Positions 1 to 25,643 of a stretch of DNA of 34,841 nucleotides are shown here, one piece after another. The notes under the pieces were generated by a model, which searched no databases, was not told where the DNA came from, and saw only the letters and a list, made by a program, of their open reading frames with translations. The position numbers and the translations under genes are program-made. How positions within the stretch are numbered: position 1 is the first letter of the stretch; every line of letters begins with the position of its first letter. The DNA comes from Wenyingzhuangia heitensis (GTDB lineage: Bacteria; Bacteroidota; Bacteroidia; Flavobacteriales; Flavobacteriaceae). Location of the stretch: contig NZ_JAASQL010000006.1 in NCBI RefSeq assembly GCF_011762155.1, forward strand, positions 105,831 to 140,671, written 5' to 3'.

Positions 1-313
1 ATTATTTTAATTTTTGAACGATCTCATCACGGTGTTCGAGCGAAGTCGAGAACCCTGTCAGTTCGAGTTTCTTTTGCTGTAGTAAACAGAAGTAAAAGAA
101 GTATTGAGAACAGTAGAGTACTTTTACAATCAGTTAAGATTTCACATCTCGACTTCGCTCGATGACCTTATTGTTTCAATTTTTCAACGATCTAATCACG
201 GTGTTCGAGCGGAGTCGATAACCTTGTCAGTTCGAGTGTCCTGAACTCGTTTCAGGATGTATCGAGAACAGGGTTAACTAGTATAATAATACTTCTCGAT
301 ACTCGTGACTCCA
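1..313. repeat. Two diverged copies of a palindromic repeat unit
   Basis: Copy 1 spans about 1-167 and copy 2 about 168-313. Each holds a GTTCGAGCG-type 20-mer (34-53 and 203-222), then a CAGTTCGAGT motif (59-68 and 228-237), a central hairpin, a GAGAAC end (106-111 and 264-269), and a closing CTCGACTTCGCTCGA-type element (148-162; degenerate at 293-312). The flanks (TCATCACGGT before the 20-mer) also match. The central hairpins differ in sequence: copy 2 has TCCTGAA...TTCAGGA (239-257), copy 1 has TTCTTTT...AAAAGAA. No gene is seen in 1-439. This is the same repeat family as at 5939-7037. Confidence 0.8.
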
Positions 314-439
314 TTACATTTCGTAATTAACTGGAAGTGACAATAAATAACATTTGTTAAAAACTTTACTTGTTTGTGGAAAAGTATGCCTTTCTTTAAT
401 TACTTATTATAGGTAGTTTTACAAAGAAAACAACAGTAA

Positions 440-2035
440 ATGAAAACAACTTTCTTAGGACACGGACTTAGTTCTGATAAAAAAAATAATGTCAGAAAAC
501 AACTTGCTGAATCTTTTGAAAGTAAAAAATACAAAAAAATTTATGGATTTGTTGCTTTTGCAACCCTTTCTGGAATTAAGCCCTTAAAGTCAAAGCTTAA
601 AATAGCCAAATCAAATTTCGAAGAAATCAAATTCTTTATTGGAATTAATGGTAATATTACTAGTGAAGAAGCTCTTGAGTTTTTATTAAATGAGAATATT
701 GAAACATATATTTATTATGATGAATCAATTCCCGAGAAAATTTATCATCCAAAATTATTCTTGTTTGAGGGTAAAGAAGTTTCTAGAATAATCATTGGTT
801 CTACAAATCTTACAAATCGAGCAATTAATTTAAATGTGGAAGCATCAATACAATTAGACCTTGAGTTAGATGACTTAAATACACTTACTGAAATTAAAGA
901 TTATTATTCAAGTCTCCTCGACCTTTCTTCACCAAATTTAAAATTGCTTTCATACGATTATTTAGAAATTTTAAAAAAACGAGGTCTATTATCTAATGGA
1001 AATAATGATGAAGACAATGAAAATGACAAGGACGACCACGAAATTAAAAAGAGATATGAATATGACAAAAAGTTCACAGAAAACGATAAAGAAAAATTTG
1101 ATACGTTATTAGATAGATATATTTTATATAAAAAAGCTAAAAGACCTGATGGAATAGTAAGTAAACACGCAAAGGACAAAGAATTATTCAGATGGTATCA
1201 AAAAATGCACGGTTTATACAATCAAGAGACAAATTCACTGCCTTTTGAATGTTTTGAAAGGTTACTCGAAGCAGAATTTCCTTTCGATGGTATTGGTAGA
1301 GAGAATAAAAGAGTAATCGAATGGGAAAAAAACTTTAATAAATTAGTAGAACATAAAAACAAAGTAAGCCCTGATACTGATTATACTTATATCCCACAAT
1401 TTAAAAATAAATACCATCCTTATTATGAAATTGGTAGATGGTGTGCTTGGCAAAAACAAAGAAGAAAAGGAAATAAAAATTATGGACCATTACTAACTAC
1501 TCACGAAGAAAAGAGGATGAAATCTATAAATTTCATTTGGGATTATGATAGTAAAATGTATGGCCGTGCAAAAGATGATGAATGGAAAGATACTTTGAAA
1601 GAACTTGAAAAATATTACAATATCAAAATAAATAACAAAACCGTTCCTTCACAAAAAACATATATTGGGCATTGGCTAAGTGACCAAATGTCTTTTAAAA
1701 CCAAACAAGATAGAGAGGGTAGAAATGACTTACTAAGTTCAGAAAAAGAAGAAATGCTAGGGAAACTTCTAATTAAAAATGGAGTTGAATGGGAATGGAG
1801 AAAACAAAAAGAAAGAGAGAGTATTGAAAGTAAAATTAAAAGTTGGCAGTTTGTTGAAAAGTTAAAAACTGAAGGCACATACAAAAAATTCAGAGAGGAA
1901 AATCCAAAGGTTATAATTAAATATAACGATGATGTTGCTCAATTAAGAAGTCATACAAAAAGATGGAATAATGAAAAAAATAAATGGAAATTTGAACTTG
2001 TTGACAAAGTTGGATTTCCCTATAGTAAGGAATAA
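440..2035 (+). CDS. Orphan PLD-like nuclease fused to helicase-associated domains
   Basis: The 531-residue product begins with a phospholipase-D-type nuclease half. The HxK motif is at residues 103-105 (HPK), followed by GSTN at 120-123, the usual signature of PLD-fold restriction and repair nucleases (NgoFVII/BfiI-like). Only one HKD-type motif is present, so the active enzyme would have to dimerise. After an acidic linker (about 186-200), the C-terminal half resembles the 'helicase associated' domain found behind superfamily 2 helicases: tryptophan-spaced modules at about 290-367 (W295, W334, W337, W367) and 378-453 (W382, W412, W451), with a basic tail. No DEAD-box helicase core is present. 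The gene is AT-rich and stands alone after a repeat block, suggesting acquisition or decay of a larger PLD-helicase-HA protein. I infer a DNA-binding, possibly defence-related nuclease; the biological role is not known. Confidence 0.75.
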   Translation: MKTTFLGHGLSSDKKNNVRKQLAESFESKKYKKIYGFVAFATLSGIKPLKSKLKIAKSNFEEIKFFIGINGNITSEEALEFLLNENIETYIYYDESIPEKIYHPKLFLFEGKEVSRIIIGSTNLTNRAINLNVEASIQLDLELDDLNTLTEIKDYYSSLLDLSSPNLKLLSYDYLEILKKRGLLSNGNNDEDNENDKDDHEIKKRYEYDKKFTENDKEKFDTLLDRYILYKKAKRPDGIVSKHAKDKELFRWYQKMHGLYNQETNSLPFECFERLLEAEFPFDGIGRENKRVIEWEKNFNKLVEHKNKVSPDTDYTYIPQFKNKYHPYYEIGRWCAWQKQRRKGNKNYGPLLTTHEEKRMKSINFIWDYDSKMYGRAKDDEWKDTLKELEKYYNIKINNKTVPSQKTYIGHWLSDQMSFKTKQDREGRNDLLSSEKEEMLGKLLIKNGVEWEWRKQKERESIESKIKSWQFVEKLKTEGTYKKFREENPKVIIKYNDDVAQLRSHTKRWNNEKNKWKFELVDKVGFPYSKE

Positions 2036-2117
2036 ATGTCTGCACCAAAAACCATATATAATTAATTATTTTATTAGCTAAACTACGCAATAAACTATAT
2101 TCATCAACCGTAATCCA

Positions 2118-2603
2118 TCATATAGGCACAGCATAATTGTGTTTTATCACCCCAATAACAAAGGTACTGTGTGCACTACCAATATTTTTTACAGAACCTA
2201 ACTCGTTAATTACAAAAGATTGATAATCTTTCATATCCTTGACCATAATTTTTAATAAAAAATCGTAGTCTCCAGAAATATTGTAACACTCAACCACTTC
2301 TTTTAGTGAAACAATATCTCTAACAAACCTATTCCCTATTTCTTTGGTATGTTCCTTTAACGTGATATTGCAAAATACCGTTAAATTTTTACCTGCTTTT
2401 TCTGCATTTACAATCGCCGTGTATTTTTCTATCAAACCTTCTTTTTCAAACCGTTTGATTCTCTCATAAACAGGAGTTGGAGATAAATTTACACGGGCTG
2501 CTATTTCTTTAGTTGTCAATTTCGCATCTTTTTGAAGCACTCTTAGCAACTCCAAGTCAATTAAATCTAAGCTTTCTACAGAAAAATTATCTGTTTTTTT
2601 CAT
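2118..2603 (-). CDS. Lrp/AsnC family transcriptional regulator
   Basis: The 161-residue protein has the Lrp/AsnC layout: an N-terminal winged helix-turn-helix (about residues 13-65, with LTTKEIAARVNLSPTPVYER as the recognition region) and a C-terminal RAM/ligand-binding domain (about 75-155). Such proteins form dimers to octamers and sense amino acids. It is divergent from the mesX-mesD methionine genes, and the shared 135-bp intergenic region contains three 30-bp-phased repeats, so I infer that it controls the methionine module and itself, perhaps in response to methionine or a related amino acid. The length is normal for the family. The effector cannot be read from sequence. Confidence 0.93.
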   Translation of the reverse strand: MKKTDNFSVESLDLIDLELLRVLQKDAKLTTKEIAARVNLSPTPVYERIKRFEKEGLIEKYTAIVNAEKAGKNLTVFCNITLKEHTKEIGNRFVRDIVSLKEVVECYNISGDYDFLLKIMVKDMKDYQSFVINELGSVKNIGSAHSTFVIGVIKHNYAVPI

Positions 2604-2610
2604 TTCTACA

Positions 2611-2700
2611 CTCTATAAAAGATTAATTATCTGTAAAAATACACCAAATAGATTAATTATCTGATTTTATACACAAATTAAATTAATTCATCTTTTATAT
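2611..2700. promoter_or_regulatory. Three 30-bp-phased operator-like repeats
   Basis: AGATTAATTATCTG occurs at 2620-2633 and identically at 2650-2663; a degenerate copy (AAATTAATTCATCT) is at 2680-2693. All are in exact 30-bp register, close to three helical turns. The core AGATtAATtATCT is a near-palindrome. A further ACACCAAATAGA element occurs at 2641-2652 and again at 2719-2730, just before the mesX start. Cooperative binding to evenly spaced sites is typical of Lrp-family proteins, so this is the probable operator of the divergent regulator. That assignment is an inference. Confidence 0.6.
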
Positions 2701-2738
2701 TCAATTTTACAGAATGAAACACCAAATAGAATCATCAA

Positions 2739-3752
2739 ATGAAAACAACATTATTAGAAAACGCTAAAACAAACAAACAGGAGAATATTGCATTCACACT
2801 AAAGAGTATTTGTTTTAACGAAAACTATACTCCAGCCAACAGCACACGTACAACCACCAATTTTGCAAACTTGGCAAGAGGAGCAAATCGTAAAGAAAAC
2901 TTACGCAATACTATTTGTATGATGAACAATCGTTTTAATGATTTGGCTACTTGGGACAATCCTAATAACAATCGTTATTCGGTGGAGCTAGAAATTGTTT
3001 CTGTAGATTTAGATATTGAGGGGAATGGCACAACATTCCCATCTATTGAGGTTTTAAAAACATCTATTATTGATCATAAAACAGGCAAACGTATAGATGG
3101 TGTTGTTGGGAACAACTTTTCTTCTTATGTGCGTGATTATGATTTTAGTGTGTTGCTTTTAGAACACAACGAGAATAAGGATAACTTTAGCATCCCTCCT
3201 AATTTTGGGGAATTACATGGCAATCTATTTAAGTTTTTTGTGAATTCTGAGAGTTACAAAAAAAACTTTGCCAAATTACCGGTGATCTGTTTAAGTGTGT
3301 CACACAATAAAATTTATCATCGTACAGGAAACCAACATCCTATATTAGGTTTTGAATACCACGTTAACGAATCCTCTTTAACCGAAGAATACTTTAAAAA
3401 AATGGGCTTACAAGTTCGTTATTTTATGCCCCAAAATAGTGTTGCTCCTTTAGCTTTTTATTTTTTTGGTGATTTATTAGCGGATTATACCAACTTTGAA
3501 TTGATAAGTACGATTAGTACCATGGAAACCTTTCAAAAAATTTATAGACCCGAAATTTACAATGCTAATTCTGTAGCCGGACAGTGTTACAAGCCTAGTT
3601 TAAAAAATCAGGATCATTCTTTAACAAAAATTGTTTACAACCGAGAAGAGCGTAGTCAGTTGGCTATTGAACAAGGTAAGTTTGCAGAAAAGCATTTTAT
3701 AAAGCCTTACAAAAGTATTCTAGAACAGTGGTCTGCAAATAGCTCTCTTTAA
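2739..3752 (+). CDS. mesX: MesX, DUF1852 partner of methionine synthase MesD
   Basis: The 337-residue protein matches the DUF1852 family by its conserved stretches TTNFANLARG near residue 40, RFNDLATWDNP near 65-75, and VGNNFSSYVRDYDFSVLL near 122-140. It has no signal peptide or membrane segment and should be cytoplasmic. DUF1852 genes accompany the MesD class of folate-independent methionine synthases, where the partner has been named MesX and is needed for activity; its chemistry and the methyl source are, to my knowledge, unsettled. The mesD gene follows 27 bp downstream on the same strand, supporting co-transcription. The ATG lies 8 bp after a second copy of an ACACCAAATAGA element in the putative Lrp operator region. 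Confidence 0.88.
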   Translation: MKTTLLENAKTNKQENIAFTLKSICFNENYTPANSTRTTTNFANLARGANRKENLRNTICMMNNRFNDLATWDNPNNNRYSVELEIVSVDLDIEGNGTTFPSIEVLKTSIIDHKTGKRIDGVVGNNFSSYVRDYDFSVLLLEHNENKDNFSIPPNFGELHGNLFKFFVNSESYKKNFAKLPVICLSVSHNKIYHRTGNQHPILGFEYHVNESSLTEEYFKKMGLQVRYFMPQNSVAPLAFYFFGDLLADYTNFELISTISTMETFQKIYRPEIYNANSVAGQCYKPSLKNQDHSLTKIVYNREERSQLAIEQGKFAEKHFIKPYKSILEQWSANSSL

Positions 3753-3779
3753 TTAAAAAAAACACCTTATTATTTTATT

Positions 3780-4808
3780 ATGAAAAAATTATTACCCACA
3801 TCAACAGTCGGAAGTTTACCCAAACCTACTTGGCTTGCACCCCCAGAAAAACTATGGTCTCCATGGAAATTAGAAGGAAATCAATTGCTTGAAGGAAAAC
3901 AAGATGCTTTACGTGTTTCTTTGCAAGAACAACAATTGGCAGGGCTAGATATTATTAGTGATGGTGAACAAACACGTCAACATTTTGTGACTACTTTTAT
4001 TGAATATTTAAGTGGTGTCGATTTTAAAAATCGTAAAACCGTAAAAATTCGTAACCGTTATGAGGCTAGTGTTCCTGTTGTTGTAGATAAAATTGCACGT
4101 AAAAAAGCCGTTTTTGTTGAGGATGCTAAATTTTTACGCAAACAGACAAATCAACTTATCAAATGGGCATTACCTGGACCTATGACTATGGTAGATACTT
4201 TGTATGATGATCATTACAAAAGCCAAGAAAAATTGGCTTGGGAATTTGCCAAAGTACTGAATGAAGAAGCAAGAGAATTACAAGATGCAGGAGTAGATAT
4301 TATTCAGTTTGATGAACCTGCTTTTAATGTGTTTTTTGACGATGTAAACGATTGGGGAATGCAAGTATTGGAAAGAGCCATTGAAGGTTTGCACTGCCAA
4401 ACGGCTATACATATTTGTTATGGTTATGGAATAAAAGCAAACAACGATTGGAAAAAGACATTGGGTTCTGAGTGGCGACAATACGAAGAAATTTTTCCTA
4501 AAATTCAAAAATCTAACATAGATATTGTCTCCTTAGAGTGTCATAACTCACATGTACCCTTTAATTTATTAGAACTTATTCGTGGTAAAAAAGTAATGGT
4601 TGGTGCTATTGATGTAGCTACTAACACCATAGAAACACCCGAAGAAGTAGCTGCTACGCTACGCAAAGCATTAGAGTTTGTAGATATAAAAAACCTTTAC
4701 CCTTGTACAAATTGTGGTATGGCTCCTTTGCCTAGAAACATCGCAAATGCTAAGTTGAGTGCTTTAAGTGCAGGAGCAGAAATTATCCGTAAAGAACTTG
4801 CGTTATAA
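3780..4808 (+). CDS. mesD: MesD, folate-independent methionine synthase (core MetE)
   Basis: At 342 residues this is only the C-terminal catalytic barrel of cobalamin-independent methionine synthase (full MetE is about 750 residues); the N-terminal folate-binding half is absent. The start TSTVGSLPKP and the zinc-site motifs are visible: HIC near residue 213, ECHNSH near 255, and CTNCGMAPLP near 312-321. The reaction is S-methylation of homocysteine to methionine from a donor other than methyl-tetrahydrofolate. Placement directly after the DUF1852 gene mesX identifies the MesD subclass rather than MesA, MesB or MesC. No methionine gene of another kind is nearby. The start ATG follows mesX by 27 bp, in an A/T-rich leader without a Shine-Dalgarno sequence. 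Confidence 0.87.
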   Translation: MKKLLPTSTVGSLPKPTWLAPPEKLWSPWKLEGNQLLEGKQDALRVSLQEQQLAGLDIISDGEQTRQHFVTTFIEYLSGVDFKNRKTVKIRNRYEASVPVVVDKIARKKAVFVEDAKFLRKQTNQLIKWALPGPMTMVDTLYDDHYKSQEKLAWEFAKVLNEEARELQDAGVDIIQFDEPAFNVFFDDVNDWGMQVLERAIEGLHCQTAIHICYGYGIKANNDWKKTLGSEWRQYEEIFPKIQKSNIDIVSLECHNSHVPFNLLELIRGKKVMVGAIDVATNTIETPEEVAATLRKALEFVDIKNLYPCTNCGMAPLPRNIANAKLSALSAGAEIIRKELAL

Positions 4809-4831
4809 TCTTATTTTAAAAATCATCATAA

Positions 4832-4885
4832 GGGTTTCTTTTATTAAGATGCTAATCAAAATTTTAGAACATTCATTAGAAACCC
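4832..4885 (+). other. Inverted repeat between mesD and the permease gene
   Basis: GGGTTTCT (4832-4839) is complementary to AGAAACCC (4878-4885), with a 38-base loop, in the 104-bp gap after mesD. There is no clear T-run after the second arm, so it may be a processing or attenuation structure rather than a simple terminator. It may also be chance. Confidence 0.3.
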
Positions 4886-4912
4886 ATCAACAATAAAAAA
4901 TACAATTTACTT

Positions 4913-5749
4913 ATGGATATATTTATTCTTTACTATCTAATTACTGGTGCTTTTGCTGGCTTATTGGCAGGTTTGTTTGGAATTGGTGGAGGTATGATTA
5001 TTGTACCCGCATTAATTTACATTTTTACAACACAAGGAATTCCTCAAGCTGCACTTACTCATATGGGTATTGGTACCTCTTTAGCCACTATTATTGTAAC
5101 TTCTATTAGTTCTTTAAGAGCGCACAATAGCAAAGGTGCGGTTAACTGGAATGTCTGGAAACGCATGGCACCAGGATTGGTGATTGGTTCTTTAATTGGT
5201 GCCGGTATTGCCTCTATGATTAACGGTAATTCGCTTCAAGCAGTTATTGGAGTAGGTGCTTTTTTAATAGGATTAAAAATGTTGTTTGTAAAAAATAAAG
5301 GCCTAGAAGAAGATGATTTAAGCAAACTCCCTTCACCTGTTGGACAAACTAGTTTAGGAGGTTTTGTGGGAATGGTTTCTGCAATTTTTGGTATTGGTGG
5401 AGGTACTTTAACGGTTCCGATATTGAGCAATTATGGATTAAAAATTCAGAATGCAGTAGGTACATCGGCTGCCTGTGGCTTGCCTATTGCGACTGCGGGT
5501 GCTATTGGATTTTTGTACTTTGGACAATTTGTAGATGCCAATATAAAAGACTCTTTGCCTAATGGGGTGTTTGGTTTTGTACACATGTACGCATTTATTT
5601 GTTTGAGTTTTGCTAGCTTTTTTACCGCTCGTGTTGGTGCAAAATTGGCACATAAATTACCTGCAGCAACCTTAAAAAAAGGATTTGCAGTATTGTTATT
5701 AATTGTAGGTATTAAATTAGTATTGAATTCTGATGTTTTTACAATTTAA
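4913..5749 (+). CDS. TauE/SafE family membrane permease
   Basis: The 278-residue protein is strongly hydrophobic with about eight membrane segments. It shows the internal duplication of the TauE/SafE family: GLFGIGGGMIIVPAL near residues 22-36 is echoed by AIFGIGGGTLTVPIL near 157-171. Family members export or import sulfite, sulfoacetate or other small anions across the inner membrane. It lies 104 bp downstream of mesD on the same strand, so a link to sulfur or methyl-donor metabolism is plausible: it could move a sulfur anion released or used by the methionine module. The substrate cannot be assigned from sequence. Its length fits the family. Confidence 0.9.
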   Translation: MDIFILYYLITGAFAGLLAGLFGIGGGMIIVPALIYIFTTQGIPQAALTHMGIGTSLATIIVTSISSLRAHNSKGAVNWNVWKRMAPGLVIGSLIGAGIASMINGNSLQAVIGVGAFLIGLKMLFVKNKGLEEDDLSKLPSPVGQTSLGGFVGMVSAIFGIGGGTLTVPILSNYGLKIQNAVGTSAACGLPIATAGAIGFLYFGQFVDANIKDSLPNGVFGFVHMYAFICLSFASFFTARVGAKLAHKLPAATLKKGFAVLLLIVGIKLVLNSDVFTI

Positions 5750-5803
5750 CTCCTCTTTATTATTTACTTAAACAACTTTTGTGTTCGTAAAAACAATTTT
5801 ATC

Positions 5804-5923
5804 ATGACAAACCTAAACTATTTTTTAATAGACCTTGTGAATGTATCTTGTGTTGATACTGTATGCCTTTTCCCGATTGAAACACAAGGGTTAGAAACAG
5901 AAGTATGCCTTATTAGTATCTAA
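5804..5923 (+). CDS. Possible 39-residue small ORF
   Basis: An ATG-initiated frame of 39 codons begins MTNLNYFLIDLVNV and ends ICLISI-like (the last residues are CLISI), with three cysteines at residues 16, 21 and 35. Upstream, AACTTTTG (about 5775-5782) is one mismatch from TAnnTTTG. I do not recognise the product. It lies 54 bp after the permease gene, just before the repeat block, and may be non-coding. Confidence 0.2.
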   Translation: MTNLNYFLIDLVNVSCVDTVCLFPIETQGLETEVCLISI

Positions 5924-5938
5924 TACTTTTTATACGGT

Positions 5939-6061
5939 GTTTGAGTGGAGTAGAGAACTTGTCATTTTATTGTAAAGGGTGTTCGAGTGAAGTCGAGAAC
6001 TAACATGTTTTCTTGGTTTAAATGCCCATACATTTTGCTTCTCGACTTCGCTCGTAAGACC
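5939..6061. repeat. Palindromic repeat elements, copy C
   Basis: A degenerate 20-mer lies at 5939-5958 (GTTTGAGTGGAGTAGAGAAC) and a closer copy at 5981-6000 (GTTCGAGTGAAGTCGAGAAC). The latter is followed by a 37-bp spacer and the inverse element CTTCTCGACTTCGCTCG at 6038-6054. The 80-bp unit 5981-6061 closely matches 6339-6417, including the spacer (TTGGTTTAAATGCCCATACA). The open frame that crosses 5987-6181 is built from this repeat sequence and is not supported as a gene. Confidence 0.8.
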
Positions 6062-6136
6062 TTAACGTTTAGCACTGGTAGTTTGATGAACTTTTTATGT
6101 GTGTACTTAAAAACTCAACATATTATAACACACGGT

Positions 6137-6156
6137 GTTCGAGCGCAGTCGAGAAC
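6137..6156. repeat. Consensus palindromic 20-mer
   Basis: This is GTTCGAGCGCAGTCGAGAAC, identical to the copies at 6339-6358 and 6914-6933. The inverse element follows at 6198-6210 and is interrupted by extra bases. Confidence 0.8.
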
Positions 6157-6195
6157 TCAATATATTGCTATAGATTTATGAATTTACTAGAATTC

Positions 6196-6417
6196 TACTT
6201 CTCGACTCTACTTCGTCTCCGCTCAGCGCGGGCTGCTCGAAGACCATAATATTTTGAGAATATGTTTGTACAAACTACTCAGAGACTTTGAAAATATATA
6301 ACACGTAATCTAGTATGTATGAGTCATCATATTATAGGGTTCGAGCGCAGTCGAGAACTAATATGTTTCCTTGGTTTAAATGCCCATACATTTTGTTTCT
6401 CGACTTCGCTTGAAGAC
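6196..6417. repeat. Left direct repeat flanking the GIY-YIG gene
   Basis: The segment 6235-6384 (about 150 bp) aligns nearly base for base with 6808-6959 on the other side of the nuclease gene; I count only about ten differences by eye. It starts in a CTTCTCGACTC...GCTCGAAGACC element that here carries about 25 extra bases (about 6211-6235) relative to the right copy. It then runs through a shared AATATTTTGAGAATATG stretch, the consensus 20-mer (6339-6358) and a closing inverse element (6397-6417). Confidence 0.85.
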
Positions 6418-6444
6418 TATTATGGTTGGACTCTCAATGCTTCC

Positions 6445-6750
6445 CTAATTTTTATTTTTAAAATGTGTGTTATTCTTACATTCTGAAAGCACAGGTAAGA
6501 GTTCCCAATTGTTTTCAATCATTGCTTTCTTTTTAGCATGTGACCATTTTTGAATCTTCTTTTCATAATAAAAAGCATCAGCTACTTTTAAAAAATATTC
6601 TTGAAATACTAAGGTCACTGGCAATCTAGTTTTTGTGTAATTAGCTCCTTTTTTTGATTGATGTTCTGCTAATCTTTTTTCTAAATCCCTAGTGCTTCCG
6701 GTGTAGTATGTTCCATCAGAACATTGCAATATGTATACGTATCCAGCCAT
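6445..6750 (-). CDS. GIY-YIG nuclease domain protein (YhbQ/UPF0213-like)
   Basis: This 101-residue protein is a minimal GIY-YIG endonuclease domain. The GIY element appears as VYI (residues 5-7) and the YIG element as YTG (16-18). The catalytic arginine is likely R26 in DLEKRLAEHQ, and the metal-binding glutamate E63 in FYYEKKIQKW. Helix and strand order match COG2827/YhbQ, whose members nick DNA with loose specificity. It has no added DNA-binding domain. The gene has no operon partner and lies between two direct repeats of about 150 bp made of the palindromic repeat family, suggesting that gene and repeats travel or are maintained together. I infer either a mobile cassette or a nuclease that acts on the repeats; neither is shown. 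Alternatively it is an ordinary housekeeping YhbQ-like protein in a repeat-rich spot. Confidence 0.92.
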   Translation of the reverse strand: MAGYVYILQCSDGTYYTGSTRDLEKRLAEHQSKKGANYTKTRLPVTLVFQEYFLKVADAFYYEKKIQKWSHAKKKAMIENNWELLPVLSECKNNTHFKNKN

Positions 6751-6795
6751 CTTTTACCCTAAGATAAGAATTATTTTATCTTTTTAAGCATTCTA

Positions 6796-7037
6796 CTTCT
6801 CGACTCCGCTCGAAGACCATAATATTTTGAGAATATGTTTGTACAAACTACTCAGAGACCTTGAAAATATATAACACGTAATATAGTATGTATAAGTTAT
6901 TATATTAAAGGGTGTTCGAGCGCAGTCGAGAACTAATATGTTTCCTTGGTTCGAATGCCGATTCCCTGTACTTCTCGACTCCGCTCGAAGACCGTAATAT
7001 TTTGGGAGTATTTTATTACAAATTGCTCAGACACCTA
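6796..7037. repeat. Right direct repeat flanking the GIY-YIG gene, plus partial third copy
   Basis: The element CTTCTCGACTCCGCTCGAAG (6796-6815) opens the copy that matches the left repeat up to 6959, including the consensus 20-mer at 6914-6933. The same element recurs at 6971-6990 and begins a partial third copy to about 7037 (AATATTTTGGGAGTAT, then CTCAGACACCT), which ends against the stop codon of the ABC permease gene. Confidence 0.85.
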
Positions 7038-7041
7038 TAGC

Positions 7042-8262
7042 TTACTCATAACGCAAAGCCGTGATAGGATCTAAAGCTGCTGCTTTTCTTGCAGGATACC
7101 ATCCAAAAAAGATACCCGTTACAGCACAGACGGCAAAAGAAATGACAATTGAATACATGGCAACACTTGTAGGCCAATGTAAAAATTGCTCTATCAAAAA
7201 GGTAGCACTTAAACCTAATAACACTCCTAAAACTCCACCCGTAATACTAATTAAAATAGCCTCTATTAAAAACTGCATTAAAATATCAGAGCCTTTCCCT
7301 CCTACGGCCATTCTTAGTCCAATCTCTTTGGTACGTTCTTTTACGGATACATACATAATATTCATAATTCCAATTCCACCAATCAACAAAGAAATACTGG
7401 CAACGGCTACTAATAATACTGTTAACATTTCACTGGTAGAACTAAAGGTTGATATTAATTCTTCCATTGAACGGACACTAAAATCATCATCCTCATGATC
7501 CATCAATTTATGTTGCGTACGTAAAATTTCAGTGACTTGTGTTACTGCTTCTGGAGCATCCTCTTCACTTATTGCCGATGCCATTACTTGATTTAAATAA
7601 TCTATAGCTAGAATACGTTTTTGTACTGTTGTAAAAGGAGCAATCACCACATCATCTTGATCTTGTCCAAATGTATTTTCTCCTTTTTCTTCTAAAACTC
7701 CAATCACTTTAAAAGGAATGTTATCAAAACGAATCATTTTTCCTACAGGTTCTTCTCCATCAGGAAAGACATTGTCAACTACGGTTTGACCAATCAACAC
7801 TACTTTAGAAGCTTTTTGTACATCAATATCCGTAAACATACTTCCGCTTTGTAACCCCACTACTTTAATACTTAAATACTCTGGATTGACACCATAAATA
7901 GTACTTGGCCAGTTGTTGGCTCCATTAATTACTTGGCCACCACCATTCACAACCGGAGTGATATAACTTAATAGATTAGATTGTTCTTTAATCGCTTCAT
8001 AATCTTTAAGCGTTAACGTTTGTACATCTCCTCCACTTCCTCTTGCAGGTCCTCTAGTATCTGCTCCAGGCTGAATGGTAATCATATTAGATCCCATGGC
8101 AGAAATGGTGGTGCGAATACTTTCTTTAGAACCTTCTCCAATAGCCAACATGGCAATTACAGAAGCTACACCAATAATAATTCCCAACATGGTTAGCAAA
8201 GTTCTTACTTTGTTCAGCACAATGGCTTTAAAGGCTATTTTTAATAGGTTTAATATTCTCAT
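7042..8262 (-). CDS. MacB-type ABC exporter permease (FtsX family)
   Basis: The 406-residue protein has the MacB permease layout. A first membrane helix lies near residues 18-42. A large periplasmic MacB_PCD domain (about 45-250) follows. Three C-terminal helices in the FtsX domain (about 280-400) end in the family motif WYPARKAAALDPITALRYE. In E. coli MacB the ATPase is fused to this module; here it is a separate gene ending 2 bp upstream in the operon. MacB works as a mechanotransmission pump passing substrates from the periplasm through MacA and TolC. The gene is last in a four-gene minus-strand operon (TolC, MacA-like, ATPase, permease). The substrate is unknown; macrolides, peptides or lipids are possible. 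Confidence 0.93.
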   Translation of the reverse strand: MRILNLLKIAFKAIVLNKVRTLLTMLGIIIGVASVIAMLAIGEGSKESIRTTISAMGSNMITIQPGADTRGPARGSGGDVQTLTLKDYEAIKEQSNLLSYITPVVNGGGQVINGANNWPSTIYGVNPEYLSIKVVGLQSGSMFTDIDVQKASKVVLIGQTVVDNVFPDGEEPVGKMIRFDNIPFKVIGVLEEKGENTFGQDQDDVVIAPFTTVQKRILAIDYLNQVMASAISEEDAPEAVTQVTEILRTQHKLMDHEDDDFSVRSMEELISTFSSTSEMLTVLLVAVASISLLIGGIGIMNIMYVSVKERTKEIGLRMAVGGKGSDILMQFLIEAILISITGGVLGVLLGLSATFLIEQFLHWPTSVAMYSIVISFAVCAVTGIFFGWYPARKAAALDPITALRYE

Positions 8263-8264
8263 AA

Positions 8265-9008
8265 TTAATGATTTTCTTTAGGAAGTTTGGCTAATTCTGC
8301 CGCTGCCGATTGTATGTTGTTATTCTTAGCATCTTTTATCACAGCTCCATCTTTTAAGACCACCGTTCTACTGCTAAACATAGCAATGTCAGGTTCGTGT
8401 GTGACAAAAGTAATGGTGATTCCTTGTCTGTTTAATTCTTGAAACAAGGTCATAATCTCATACGATGTTCGGGTATCTAAATTCCCTGTAGCTTCATCGG
8501 CTAAAATCATTACAGGATTGTTTACCAAAGCTCTAGCAATAGCCACACGTTGTTGTTGACCTCCAGAAAGTTGAGAAGGTGTGTGATGTAATCTTTCTCC
8601 TAAACCAACCATTTCTAATGCCTTTAAAGCTCTTGCTCTGCGTTCTTCTGTAGAGACTTTACTGTTGTACAAAAGCGGTAATTCCACATTTTCTATGGCT
8701 GATGTTCTTGCTAGTAAATTATAAGATTGAAAAATAAACCCAATCTTTTCGTTACGGATGGTTGCCAATTCATTTTTAGTTAAATCTTTGACTTTTACCC
8801 CATCAATTTCATAAATTCCAGAAGTAGGCTGATCCAAACAACCTAAAATATTTAGCATGGTACTTTTTCCCGAACCACTAGATCCCATAATGGTGACAAA
8901 CTCTCCTTCTTTTATAGAAAAAGAAACACCTTTTAAGGCATGAACCACTTCTGTTCCCATGGTAAACTCACGCTTTAAATCTTCTATTTTTATAATTTCT
9001 TTTGTCAT
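8265..9008 (-). CDS. MacB/LolD-type ABC transporter ATP-binding protein
   Basis: This 247-residue ATPase has all core motifs: Walker A GSSGSGKST (residues 42-50), Q-loop Q94 in FQSYN, signature LSGGQ (147-151), Walker B VMILADE (166-172) and the switch histidine H204 in VTHEP. Sequence style and length match the MacB/LolD branch that powers extracytoplasmic-domain exporters. It is translated between the MacA-like adaptor (9-bp gap upstream) and the FtsX-type permease (2-bp gap downstream), so the two proteins together replace a fused MacB. It should sit on the cytoplasmic face of the inner membrane as a dimer. The C-terminal 25 residues after the ABC fold are polar and not recognised. Confidence 0.95.
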   Translation of the reverse strand: MTKEIIKIEDLKREFTMGTEVVHALKGVSFSIKEGEFVTIMGSSGSGKSTMLNILGCLDQPTSGIYEIDGVKVKDLTKNELATIRNEKIGFIFQSYNLLARTSAIENVELPLLYNSKVSTEERRARALKALEMVGLGERLHHTPSQLSGGQQQRVAIARALVNNPVMILADEATGNLDTRTSYEIMTLFQELNRQGITITFVTHEPDIAMFSSRTVVLKDGAVIKDAKNNNIQSAAAELAKLPKENH

Positions 9009-9017
9009 GATAGTTTA

Positions 9018-10238
9018 TTATTTTTTACCTCCTGGTCTTTGTGGCATAAATGGACTTTCTTCTTTTCCTCCTTGTGATTTTGCATCAGCAGGATTCACAC
9101 TTTTTAAACTATAGACTAGTTTATCTCCTTCAGAAATTCCGTCTACTATTTGTACGTTTACACCATCGCTTGCTCCTAAGGTTACTTTTTGGGATTTAAT
9201 TTCTCCATTGCTATTGTACACCCAAACTGAACTTCCTGATTTTTTTGGAGTTCTCACCGCTGGTCTTTCTTTTGTAGATGATGCAATATTTTGTTGTTCG
9301 TTATACGTTGCTAACTCCGCAGGTGTTGGTTTAAAATTGATGGCTTTGGCCTCTACAGATAATACATCATTTAATTCTAAAGTATAAATAGATGTAGTTG
9401 CTGTTAATCCTGGTTTTAATTTTAAATCGGGATTGTCTGCTTTGATTACGACTGTATAAGTAACTACGTTAGAGGTAATGGTAGGATCTAAACGAACTTG
9501 TGTTACCACACCATTAAAAGTATGTCCTTGATAAGCATCTACCGTAAACGTTACACGTTGTCCTTCTTTTACCTCTCCTATATCTGCTTCATCCACATCT
9601 GCCTCTACCTGCATTTCTTTTAAATCTTGTGCAATGGTAAAAAGTGTTGGGGTGCTATAACTAGCTGCAACGGTTTGTCCTTCATCTATGTCTCTAGACA
9701 ATACCACTCCATCAATAGGAGAATAAATATTGGCATAACTTAAATTGGTTTTTGCTTTTTCTAAATCTGACAAACGTTGAATAGCGGTTCCTTTTGCGGT
9801 TTCATAATTGTACAAAGCCTCATCATAATCAGACTTGCTAATTACCTTGTTGTCATACAATGTTTTCTGCCTGCTGTAAATAATTTCTTGATAGTTTTTT
9901 TGACTTATCGCATTGTCATAAGCAGCCTGTGCTTGTATGGTTGCTTGGTTTAAATTGGTTTTATCCAACTCGGCAATTAACTGCCCTTCTTTTACAATAC
10001 TGTTGTAGTCAACGTATATTTTTTCTACCACTCCAGATACCTGTGTCCCTACTTCTACCTGCGTAATAGGCTCTATAGTTCCTGTAGCTGTAACCATGGT
10101 AGTTACGTTTTCTTTTTTTGCTTTGATGGTTTTTACCTCTATAGGAGCAGGTTTGTTTCCTGTTAATAAACTAAATCCAACAGCAGCAACTACAATTAGT
10201 ACTATGCTCCCTATAAGTATGTTTTTTTTATTTTTCAT
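9018..10238 (-). CDS. MacA-like periplasmic adaptor (membrane fusion protein)
   Basis: The 406-residue adaptor has one N-terminal membrane anchor (about residues 6-26) and a biotinyl-lipoyl-like half-motif (VTATGTIEPITQVEVGTQVS near 49-68). An alpha-helical hairpin follows (about 100-165, rich in A, Q and K), then the second lipoyl half (YSPIDGVVLSRDIDEGQTV near 173-191), a beta-barrel and a membrane-proximal domain. It bridges the inner-membrane MacB-type pump and the TolC-like channel. The tail (QRPGGKK) is proline- and glycine-rich. It follows the TolC gene by 5 bp and precedes the ATPase by 9 bp, so all four are translated as one operon. Confidence 0.95.
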   Translation of the reverse strand: MKNKKNILIGSIVLIVVAAVGFSLLTGNKPAPIEVKTIKAKKENVTTMVTATGTIEPITQVEVGTQVSGVVEKIYVDYNSIVKEGQLIAELDKTNLNQATIQAQAAYDNAISQKNYQEIIYSRQKTLYDNKVISKSDYDEALYNYETAKGTAIQRLSDLEKAKTNLSYANIYSPIDGVVLSRDIDEGQTVAASYSTPTLFTIAQDLKEMQVEADVDEADIGEVKEGQRVTFTVDAYQGHTFNGVVTQVRLDPTITSNVVTYTVVIKADNPDLKLKPGLTATTSIYTLELNDVLSVEAKAINFKPTPAELATYNEQQNIASSTKERPAVRTPKKSGSSVWVYNSNGEIKSQKVTLGASDGVNVQIVDGISEGDKLVYSLKSVNPADAKSQGGKEESPFMPQRPGGKK

Positions 10239-10243
10239 TTTGA

Positions 10244-11569
10244 TTATAATTTAATGTCGTTTCCTTGATAAAATTGAAGTAATTGATGGTATAAAATATT
10301 TAGGTATTTGGCCTGTAAGTAATTCTGTTCTGCATTGGTATAGGTGTTTTGAGCAATAACCAAGTCTACGGTGCTTAATGCATTTAACTCGTGTTTTTTC
10401 TGAGCTAGTTTGTAAGATTCCTTAGCCGCAACCCTAGCAGATTCTGCCGCTACTAATTGTTCTTGTGATGCTTGTGAATTTTGCCAAGCGGTTTCTATTT
10501 TTTGAAACAATTCTTTTTTAGTAGTCTGGTACGCTAATTCAGATTTTTCAATTGTAATTTTAGCATTCTTTACTTTTGTTTTGGTCTGATTTTTATTAAA
10601 GATGGGAATACTTAACGTCAATCCTATTTTTTGGTTAAAGTTGACATCTATTTGATCAAAAAACTGAGAATCATTATTACTAGAATAACCAGAACCTATA
10701 CTCCCCGATAAACTTAAAGAAGGTAAATATGCACCTTTGGCAATGTCTAAATCCTTTTTATCTATAGCTACTTGCATTAAACTTGCGTTTAATTCTGGCA
10801 AAGTTTCTAAAGCCGTATTAAAAACAGATACTTTGCTCACTAACAATTCCGTATGTATTTCATCGTTTTTAATTTCTTTAATTTGTAAAGTATCTAAAGG
10901 TGTTAATTCTAACAATTGTTTTAAAACTAACAACTGTTGTTCGTAATTGTTTTTAGCATTAATTAAATTGTATTGTTGTGTAGCTGCTTGCGATTGTGCG
11001 TTTGTATAATCGCTTAACGGAATGGTTCCTGCCTCATAAGTAGACTTTGTTCTTTCTACTTCTTTTAAAGAAGCATCCAAATTGTTTTCTGCAATGTAAA
11101 TTCCTTCTTTAGCGTATAGAGTTTGTACATAAGCTTCTAACACACTCAATTCAATATTATTTTTAGCAGCCTCTACAAAAAACGAATTTTGTTGTACCAA
11201 TAATTTACTTTGATCTACTTGGTTGCGAATTTGATTTCCTTGATATAAAGTCATAGAAGCATTAATTCCGGCATTGGTTGCATGAATTTGCTCTGTTACA
11301 AAATCACTCGTAATAGGATCAATGGAGTTTCCGTTGGCTAAATTTTGCGAAACACTACCACTTACACTTGGCAACCAAAGTGATTTGGATTGTGAGTAAT
11401 TGTTTTCCGCTGTATTTTTAGTCAATTTGGCATTTTTAATAGTAATGTTATGCTCCAATGCATACTCTATACAGTCTTGCAAAGACCATACTTTTAGCTC
11501 CTCTTTTACCGTTTGTGCCGATAACAGCAACGAGGAAAACAATGCGATAAGGATAAGTTGTTTTTTCAT
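10244..11569 (-). CDS. TolC family outer-membrane efflux channel (ABC exporter)
   Basis: I place the start at MKKQLILIALFSSLLLSAQ (ATG at 11569), which begins a clean signal peptide; the frame is open 24 bases further to 11593, but that would bury the signal. The mature protein (about 420 residues) carries two outer-membrane efflux protein repeats: WSLQDCIEYALEHN at the start of the first, with long Q-, A- and N-rich coiled-coil helices (about 60-110, 150-220, 300-350, 360-430). As a trimer it forms the exit duct for the adjacent MacA/MacB-like pump. It is first in the minus-strand operon. A TAGGTTTG -7 box lies about 33 bp upstream. Unlike the second TolC homologue in this window (16726-18144) it has no lipobox. 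Confidence 0.94.
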   Translation of the reverse strand: MKKQLILIALFSSLLLSAQTVKEELKVWSLQDCIEYALEHNITIKNAKLTKNTAENNYSQSKSLWLPSVSGSVSQNLANGNSIDPITSDFVTEQIHATNAGINASMTLYQGNQIRNQVDQSKLLVQQNSFFVEAAKNNIELSVLEAYVQTLYAKEGIYIAENNLDASLKEVERTKSTYEAGTIPLSDYTNAQSQAATQQYNLINAKNNYEQQLLVLKQLLELTPLDTLQIKEIKNDEIHTELLVSKVSVFNTALETLPELNASLMQVAIDKKDLDIAKGAYLPSLSLSGSIGSGYSSNNDSQFFDQIDVNFNQKIGLTLSIPIFNKNQTKTKVKNAKITIEKSELAYQTTKKELFQKIETAWQNSQASQEQLVAAESARVAAKESYKLAQKKHELNALSTVDLVIAQNTYTNAEQNYLQAKYLNILYHQLLQFYQGNDIKL

Positions 11570-11601
11570 TTCTAAATCTATTTGATGATTCAAAATTGCA
11601 A

Positions 11602-11625
11602 CAAACCTATATTGTGCCCTAGCAC
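11602..11625 (-). promoter_or_regulatory. Candidate promoter of the MacAB-TolC-like operon with a dyad
   Basis: On the minus strand TAGGTTTG (11602-11609) matches the Bacteroidota -7 box TAnnTTTG. Immediately upstream is the dyad GTGC-CCTA-GCAC (11614-11625), which could be a regulator site covering the spacer. The start codon at 11569 is 33 bp downstream of the box. No clear -33 TTG element is seen. The rest of the 373-bp intergenic stretch (11570-11942) shows no gene. Confidence 0.4.
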
Positions 11626-11882
11626 TCTAGACACTCCCTTATATTAAATCTACGGAACCCCCTATTCTATCGATAAAGCATTTTATAGTACTAAGTTGTC
11701 TTTTAGCTCAACCTCTTTGCCTAGTTTAAGCTCTAAAGGACATGACATCTTTTAGCTCTCTAGCATGTTTTAAAGTGTGTAATAGATAAACAAGGATATT
11801 GTATAGACACAAAGCAGTTTTTTTTGGACAAGCATAAACAAATGTTACAATATATTTACAAACTAAATTTTCATGTTCTTTT

Positions 11883-11902
11883 AGTTCGGTTTTATCCGAA
11901 CT
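11883..11902. promoter_or_regulatory. Palindromic operator upstream of the GbsR-like regulator
   Basis: AGTTCGG (11883-11889) and CCGAACT (11896-11902) form a perfect 7-bp inverted repeat with a 6-bp spacer (TTTTAT). It lies 5 bp upstream of the -7 box at 11908, where -33 contacts are expected. Its position fits autorepression by the downstream regulator and co-control of the RND pump. Confidence 0.65.
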
Positions 11903-11907
11903 TAATA

Positions 11908-11915
11908 TATATTTG
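11908..11915 (+). promoter_or_regulatory. TAnnTTTG -7 box of the RND efflux operon
   Basis: TATATTTG matches the Bacteroidota -7 consensus exactly. The regulator's ATG is 28 bp downstream. The palindrome at 11883-11902 occupies the spacer and -33 region. Confidence 0.6.
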
Positions 11916-11942
11916 CAAACAAAAGAACTTAAAAAATAAGAT

Positions 11943-12428
11943 ATGATAGAAGATAAAAAGCGATGTCAACTTATAGAAAAGCTAGGAGTACATTTTGAAC
12001 AAAAAGAAAAAATAGCTCCAGTAGCTGCAAGAATAAAGAGTTATATCATCTTAAATGGTAAAAAGGGAACTACGTTTGAGGAATTAATTGAAAAGTTATG
12101 TGCTAGTAAAAGTACCATCTCTACACATTTAACCCATTTACAAGGATCTAATAAAATAACGTATTTCACAAAAATAGGAGATCGTAAAAAGTATTTTATC
12201 CTAAATCCAGACAGTATCATTCAAAGTATTGACGAAATGATTTCTACATGGACCCATCAAAGAGATTTACACTCAGAAGTGAAACAATTTAAAGAAGACA
12301 TGAACCATGACTTAGAAGAAATAGAAAAATTTGATTTGGACTTTCATAGTGACTACGTAGAATTTTTAAATCAAACAATAACATCCGTTTTAATATTAAA
12401 AGAAAAATTAATCAACAAAAATAATTAA
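11943..12428 (+). CDS. GbsR/MarR-like transcriptional regulator
   Basis: The 161-residue protein has a winged helix-turn-helix (about residues 30-95), with FEELIEKLCASKSTISTHLT as the helix-turn-helix and KIGDRKKYFILNP as the wing. A C-terminal coiled-coil dimerisation part (about 105-158) follows. The layout is that of GbsR-type regulators, common as local repressors of RND pumps in Bacteroidota. The adaptor gene starts 2 bp after its stop, so it is the first gene of the operon it probably represses. A perfect palindrome and a -7 box lie just upstream, supporting autoregulation. The inducing compound is not readable. Divergent orientation to the ABC exporter operon would let it affect both pumps, but only one obvious palindrome copy was found. 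Confidence 0.88.
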   Translation: MIEDKKRCQLIEKLGVHFEQKEKIAPVAARIKSYIILNGKKGTTFEELIEKLCASKSTISTHLTHLQGSNKITYFTKIGDRKKYFILNPDSIIQSIDEMISTWTHQRDLHSEVKQFKEDMNHDLEEIEKFDLDFHSDYVEFLNQTITSVLILKEKLINKNN

Positions 12429-25283: not shown

Positions 25284-25643
25284 ATGCATAAAATAGAGAA
25301 TTTAAAAATTTGGCAAAAATCTATAGAACTTAGTAAAAGAGTTTACAAGATAACTGAAAACCTTCCACAGGATGAAAAATATGGTTTAATCAGTCAAATA
25401 AAAAGAAGTTCTGTATCAGTAGCATCAAATATAGCTGAAGGAGCTGGAAGAAATTCTAACAATGAATTCTTATACTTTCTAGGCATTGCCAATGGTTCTG
25501 TTTATGAGCTACAAACTCAATTAATATTATGTCATGAATTAAATTTTATCAAACAAAATAAGTTAACAGATATTATAGGATTATGTACTGAAATCCAAAA
25601 AATGATTTACAGCTTTCAAAGTTCACTAAAATCTCGAATCTAA
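25284..25643 (+). CDS. Four-helix-bundle protein of the 23S rRNA intervening-sequence family
   Basis: The 119-residue protein is a clear member of the four-helix bundle family first seen in intervening sequences of 23S rRNA genes. It shows ENLKIWQKSIELSKRVYKIT (helix 1), GLISQIKRSSVSVASNIAEG (helix 2, the most conserved stretch), a GRN turn, the helix FLYFLGIANGSVYELQTQL and a final helix. The function is unknown; it is proposed to act as a ring-forming scaffold or nucleic-acid-associated protein. Unusually it sits inside the beta-oxidation operon, 42 bp after the dehydrogenase gene and 13 bp before the thiolase gene, on the same strand. It may be a late insertion, since the flanking genes are co-functional. 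Confidence 0.92.
   Translation: MHKIENLKIWQKSIELSKRVYKITENLPQDEKYGLISQIKRSSVSVASNIAEGAGRNSNNEFLYFLGIANGSVYELQTQLILCHELNFIKQNKLTDIIGLCTEIQKMIYSFQSSLKSRI

Follow-up and report, generated by a model that had tools for sequence, protein, structure and literature searches.

A small GIY-YIG nuclease gene of Wenyingzhuangia lies inside its own family of hairpin repeats and relatives often lie in matching ones, which suggests recognition of the repeats by the enzymes and a possible part in their spread

The window, by which we mean the whole stretch of 34,841 nucleotides analysed here, is part of contig 6 of genome G000, of the genus Wenyingzhuangia (Flavobacteriaceae). The gene that concerns us is embedded in a cluster of hairpin elements in both orientations that extends from about 5940 to 6990, and a second cluster of the same hairpins at the left edge runs on leftward past the end of the window (stretch L250). 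The features of both clusters are as follows.

35-221, both strands: right end of the second cluster, same hairpins, with cores at 35-52 (+), 146-163 (-) and 204-221 (+) (core scan)
5940-5957, + strand: weak hairpin core, three mismatches (core scan)
5982-5999, + strand: hairpin core, two mismatches to TTCGAGCGSAGTCGAGAA (core scan)
6039-6056, - strand: hairpin core, two mismatches (core scan)
6138-6155, + strand: hairpin core, exact (core scan)
6198-6242, - strand: degenerate hairpin element, its middle split by an insertion (direct reading of the sequence)
6235-6384, no strand assigned: left copy of the direct repeat, similarity continuing to 6417 (alignment)
6340-6357, + strand: hairpin core, exact (core scan)
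6397-6414, - strand: hairpin core, two mismatches, just beyond the 3' end of the gene (core scan)
6445-6750, - strand: GIY-YIG nuclease gene, 101 aa, single UPF0213-like domain (ORF list, Pfam, structure model)
6797-6814, - strand: hairpin core, exact, just beyond the 5' end of the gene (core scan)
6808-6959, no strand assigned: right copy of the direct repeat, similarity continuing to 6992 (alignment)
6915-6932, + strand: hairpin core, exact (core scan)
6972-6989, - strand: hairpin core, exact (core scan)

Two other genes of the window deserve mention. Directly after the left-edge hairpin cluster there is an ORF with PLD-like and helicase-associated domains (440-2035, + strand), not seen at the corresponding place in the four other genomes compared. 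At 25284-25643 (+ strand), between two metabolic genes and not in an rRNA gene, lies a gene for a protein of the 23S rRNA-intervening-sequence type (PF05635, 140 bits).

The 101-aa product scores 60.1 bits with the Pfam GIY-YIG model PF01541, above the curated cut-off of 22.6. The conserved active-site residues of GIY-YIG enzymes are a Tyr, a Tyr-x-Gly, an Arg and a Glu, and the set is complete in the window protein, in which Y6, Y16, G18, R26 and E63 are unchanged in all 20 aligned GIY-YIG sequences; judged by its sequence, the protein is a predicted GIY-YIG nuclease. The structure model is confident (mean pLDDT 88.7), and the closest solved structures, in sequence and in fold, are the two UPF0213/YhbQ-type proteins 1zg2 and 1ywl, followed among the folds by Slx1. 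The three nearest GIY-YIG relatives are Wenyingzhuangia records with 86-92% identity, and the genome of the window carries a second short GIY-YIG gene, that of locus L002.

A sequence-only reading of this DNA had placed the gene between near-identical 150-bp direct repeats, each with a 20-mer and an inverse element. The repeats are there, identical in 142 of 152 columns (93%), so that "near-identical" is slightly generous, and their similarity extends to 6417 and 6992 (166 of 185 columns). The 20-mer GTTCGAGCGCAGTCGAGAAC occurs in each of them, at 6339 and 6914, with a third copy at 6137, and the inverse elements were found at 6397-6414, 6797-6814 and 6972-6989. The 18-mer core of these elements gives 12 matches in the window with up to three mismatches, against 0.01 expected from shuffles. 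When up to two mismatches are allowed, the genome as a whole has 38 matches, and the reversed pattern has none.

From the window and the related loci we read the element as REP-like, with an unpaired 5' tag, a 4-bp stem that covaries, and the core GAGC-N(2-3)-GTCGA. Of 103 copies of GAGCGNAGTCGA picked by the core alone in Flavobacteriaceae stretches, 101, 100, 99 and 93 were Watson-Crick paired at the four positions just outside the core, where shuffling gave means of 56, 58, 28 and 39; the fifth pair outward was at chance level. The letters change and the pairing stays, so that the hairpin is supported by covariation. The folding energy of single hairpins was dropped as a line of support, since none of the four hairpins folded was better than its shuffles. 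GGT is the tag of 26 hairpins in the window's genome and of 69 at other loci of the genus; in the other Flavobacteriaceae stretches the commonest tag letters are TGTC (132 hairpins, 58-66% per position).

When the 256 possible four-letter tags were ranked near the GIY-YIG genes of the family, using hairpins of any sequence, TGTC came first (32 observed, 6.0 expected) and CGTC fourth (17 observed, 4.3 expected), and GTAG was not outstanding (7 observed, 4.7 expected). The rule did not carry over outside Flavobacteriaceae. Enrichment of TGTC- or CGTC-tagged hairpins near GIY-YIG genes had been predicted in advance for Alphaproteobacteria, and loci of mixed phyla were used in their place: such hairpins numbered 4 with 2.9 expected at 25 loci, and 6 with 4.3 expected at 17 further loci, which does not confirm the prediction. 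Hairpins preceded by AGAC were over-represented near GIY-YIG genes outside the family in two separate sets of loci (10 against 1.6, and 6 against 0.4), an excess noticed post hoc. A universal stem-GA-N-GA-stem architecture was also tried and rejected, as its approximately threefold enrichment near GIY-YIG genes was equalled by the control motif TC..TC.

We then asked how general the association is. PF01541 matches were present in all 149 Flavobacteriaceae genomes searched, up to 26 in each, counts that take in UvrC-sized frames; two genomes, G134 and G147, with 26 and 25 matches, are suited to following the expansion of gene and repeats. The sample comprised 100 stretches, each no longer than 20 kb, from around the best-scoring PF01541 places, a selection from all matches, and 99 of them held a GIY-YIG gene (115 genes in total; L169 was mis-centred and held none). 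The sequence-only reading had suggested testing whether such genes are flanked by repeats more often than random genes, and the outcome was clear: a repeat common to the left and right 400-bp flanks was found in 61 of 112 short GIY-YIG genes and in 14 of 977 control genes (Fisher p about 1e-54), three of the 115 genes being left out for a flank that was too short. Excluding genes with another GIY-YIG gene within 1 kb left the proportion at 51 of 95; at the threshold used, 51 of the 112 genes had no repeat common to both flanks.

The hairpin of the window class lies within 500 bp of 33 of the 115 genes, the remaining genes being without that class. Its density is 0.98 per kb (106 hairpins) beside GIY-YIG genes and falls to 0.020 per kb (26 hairpins) at distances above 2.5 kb, a ratio of about 50 that is partly post hoc, as some of the refinement of the core motif used the same stretches. 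In a more independent check with loci outside Wenyingzhuangia, three loci of the genus being omitted, the 38.9 kb close to the gene held 35 hairpins and the 260.6 kb at a distance held 7 (about 33-fold denser near the gene). Among those outside loci, 11 of 35 carry the hairpin, and 8 of the 11 belong outside Flavobacteriales (Brevinematales, Nitrosomonas, Thiothrix, Chloroherpetonaceae, two Chloroflexi, Ignavibacteria and Sphingomonadales); no window-class hairpin was found nearby at the Bacillota GIY-YIG loci examined. Ten UvrC control loci (approximately 54 kb) held two hairpins.

In some of the loci the layout of a unit can be seen directly. Window-class hairpins stand within 300 bp on both sides of 23 of the 115 genes, and on one side only of nine. 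The nearest two hairpins face outward in 15 of the 23 bracketed genes, units that measure 347-427 bp in 14 of the 15 cases; the other eight bracketed genes show some other orientation. The window copy departs from this typical layout, as the nearest hairpins of its gene are both on the minus strand. Single hairpins and pairs also occur in unrelated flanks elsewhere in the genome of the window. In a set of 122 dispersed cores, taken from those listed in the count over genomes, 19 of 24 pairs within 120 bp share the outward layout. The pairs L182, L185, L186 and L201 of the same genome combine two stems, GTTC.. and CATC...

Each clade of GIY-YIG proteins is matched to its own hairpin class, and both this matching and the association of gene and hairpin are strong. 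On a tree of 151 GIY-YIG proteins the window-class label changes 11 times, against 40.4 times on average when shuffled, and none of 500 shuffles was as low; the tree rests on few columns, and near-copies favour clustering, yet the label groups span genera and phyla. Four sequences of the first alignment attempt are absent from alignment A1 (L018, L021, L023 and L038, with stop codons in L018 and L038). The L002 gene is flanked by a different repeat element, first noticed in L002, L103 and L097, which lies near all seven members of the L002 protein clade, five of which played no part in defining it; overall 10 of 150 loci have it close by, and approximately 1.3 Mb of more distant sequence holds it at 8 places. 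Class matching across genera, together with two paralogues and two repeat classes in one genome, offers a natural series for the study of how GIY-YIG enzymes choose their targets.

It had also been expected that repeat number would follow gene presence, and this stood in part. Across the 149 genomes the core count correlates with the PF01541 count (Spearman 0.50, and 0.43 given genome size and Y1 count, both values being uncorrected for host kinship). At least eight cores are reached in 59 genomes, none of which has two or fewer PF01541 matches; among genomes of at least 3 Mb, eight cores are reached in none of seven with two or fewer matches and in 56 of 114 with more. The part that failed concerns G152, of the same genus, which has 29 cores and a single UvrC-sized GIY-YIG match and no short GIY-YIG gene: it is a counter-example to the idea that the repeats need a resident gene, and the gene may have been lost, may lie in an assembly gap, or may not be needed. 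G151 has 29 cores and short GIY-YIG genes, with no DNA match to the window gene, and zero cores were found in G154 (85% complete), which does have short GIY-type matches. In G152 there is also a hairpin array of 1.1 kb (L246, 6799-7934), which may be a relic or the sign of an assembly gap, or may speak against the repeats depending on the gene.

The position of the gene varies within the genus. In all five genus genomes examined, hairpin clusters occur in the interval bounded by an iron-type alcohol dehydrogenase gene (Pfam Fe-ADH) and an ORF like that at 11943-12428 of the window; for ORF 11943-12428, a proposed identity as a MarR-type regulator was withdrawn, as the ORF has no Pfam match. 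G149 has a GIY-YIG gene inside the interval, and in G000 the window gene lies in an expanded version of it. Empty sites, which the sequence-only reading had suggested looking for, were found to the extent that the interval clusters occur without the gene in G150, G152 and G153; a clean site with precise edges was not among them. The gene content of the interval (window 35-11943; L243, L246, L249, L250 and L252) differs across the five genomes, and it looks like a hot spot of gene exchange.

At two other sites of the genus, those of the G150 gene and of the second G149 gene, the neighbours on the right are present in five and six other genus genomes, respectively, with no GIY-YIG gene beside them, and these are not clean empty sites, because the left-hand neighbours are not adjacent there. 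Window-type genes stand beside different neighbours in the genus, which does not fit a free-standing homing endonuclease that inserts at a fixed site of a conserved target. From presence and absence across the genus sites we conclude that the gene comes and goes; neither a precise edge nor a target duplication was found at the genus loci compared. The mobility proposed for the cassette receives only indirect support, from the variable position of the gene.

We favour the explanation, which we hold to be somewhat more probable than its negation, that gene and repeats form a selfish pair like a REPtron, with a GIY-YIG nuclease in place of the tyrosine transposase. The pairing itself is well supported, and a REP/RAYT-like pairing built on a GIY-YIG enzyme, as the sequence-only reading had imagined, agrees with the flank repeats, the match of class and clade, and the correlation of counts; binding, cleavage of a single strand, cutting at the tag and mobilisation are what we infer from it, and the enzyme may, as that reading also suggested, spread, maintain or cut the repeats. 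In such a cycle the hairpins would fold when the DNA is single-stranded, on the lagging strand, in repair or in transformation; the enzyme would recognise stem and core and nick at or near the tag; and the hairpin pair, either alone or together with the gene, would be copied elsewhere by repair or replication, or would be multiplied in tandem into arrays like those of the window. The basic unit would be the one often seen in related loci, a plus-strand hairpin, the gene and a minus-strand hairpin with the tags outward, and the many dispersed copies without a gene would be the same hairpin pair minus the gene. That the enzyme recognises the hairpin is likely, and we would be surprised if it did not; that it cuts a single strand is less certain, though more probable than not; for its mobilising the repeats the chances are about equal either way.

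A repeat-specific single-strand nuclease could also have hairpins as targets for a function of the cell, for instance limiting DNA uptake or recombination or repairing folded DNA, without any mobilisation, the copies near the gene being retained as targets or for regulation. We regard this as unlikely. In its favour, class matching requires recognition and not mobility, Slx1, a nuclease of branched DNA, is the nearest solved fold after UPF0213, and there is a precedent in Neisseria Ssn, a single-domain GIY-YIG enzyme that is said to cut single strands site-specifically at a repeat of the genome. What it leaves unexplained is the dense clustering of hairpins at the gene, the dispersed pairs in unrelated flanks, and the changes of place of the gene. 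We give a lower probability still to ordinary hypervariable DNA, in which arrays arise by slippage or recombination and genes are swapped by homologous recombination, the enzyme having no special role. The tandem arrays are typical of slippage, and the differing gene sets of the interval in five genomes would suit such a region; control genes, however, are not enriched for flank repeats, and slippage yields neither singles and pairs in unrelated flanks nor a matching of clade and class.

Slightly less probable again, in our judgement, is that another enzyme, such as a Y1/RAYT transposase, spreads the repeats and that GIY-YIG genes merely insert or survive beside them. The genome of the window does have one Y1 gene, a Y1 match occurs in 59 of the 149 genomes, repeats exist in G152 without a short GIY-YIG gene, and Y1 and repeat counts are weakly correlated (0.24). 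That correlation drops to 0.07 (p 0.40) once genome size and GIY-YIG count are taken into account, however, and 30 of the 59 genomes with at least eight cores have no Y1 match; the hairpin was found at none of 11 Y1 loci examined, against 33 of the 115 GIY-YIG genes (p 0.065), and a Y1 enzyme would not produce the class matching. Y1 transposases were accordingly set aside as the partner of these repeats, as counts, correlations and loci were unsupportive.

Returning to the selfish pair, it can be compared with the known REP families. REPs are widespread in bacteria. Most of them are GTAG repeats, linked to RAYTs, or CGTC repeats, with the variants TGTC and CCTC, according to Di Nocera et al. 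(2013, PMC3733652), who report the CGTC repeats from several phyla, Bacteroidetes and Spirochaetes included, and write that they "apparently lack a dedicated transposase". Set against the CGTC repeats described there, the present repeats are alike in the CGTC/TGTC 5' tag of Flavobacteriaceae as a whole and in forming pairs of opposite orientation whose partner stems are different, and the unexplained "heterodimers" described there resemble the two-stem pairs L182, L185, L186 and L201. They are unlike in that the window's genome and genus carry the tag GGT, and the CGTC stem is given there as 8-9 bp beginning from A-T with a loop of 4-5, whereas here four covarying pairs lie outside GAGC..GTCGA. 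A literature search gave no link of GIY-YIG enzymes with REPs among the matches listed, preprints and most subscription papers being outside its scope.

We put forward, tentatively and at a little below even chances, that many bacterial hairpin repeats, including the TGTC/CGTC-tagged REPs, have short GIY-YIG nucleases as their dedicated partners. Enzyme and repeats would then make up a second kind of REPtron, not homologous to the first and present in several phyla, with a GIY-YIG enzyme instead of a transposase copying hairpin pairs around genomes. The clade-matched small nuclease would then be a candidate enzyme for CGTC-tagged REPs that can be tested with oligonucleotides.

Among single-domain GIY-YIG proteins, the UPF0213/YhbQ group is nearest to the window enzyme, yet the Bacillota relatives examined lack such hairpins, and Neisseria Ssn is alike as a single-domain GIY-YIG enzyme acting on a genomic repeat, as the window enzyme would. 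Differences from the REP/RAYT REPtrons are that the enzyme belongs to PF01541 and not to the Y1/HUH group, and that the tag is GGT in the genus and TGTC in the family instead of GTAG. The only Y1 match of the genome is on another contig, with no window-class hairpin in the 3.8 kb examined around it; Y1 subclasses with atypical flanking structures are described for Bacteroidetes in PMC6006769, a reminder that Y1 partners do occur there. The likeness is nonetheless close at the level of organisation: in PMC3733652, REPtrons consist of short tagged hairpins, often in pairs of opposite orientation, that are dispersed and flank a small nuclease-type gene, with several classes per genome each having its own enzyme, and here too REP hairpins stand on both sides of the enzyme gene and recur at scattered places of the genome.
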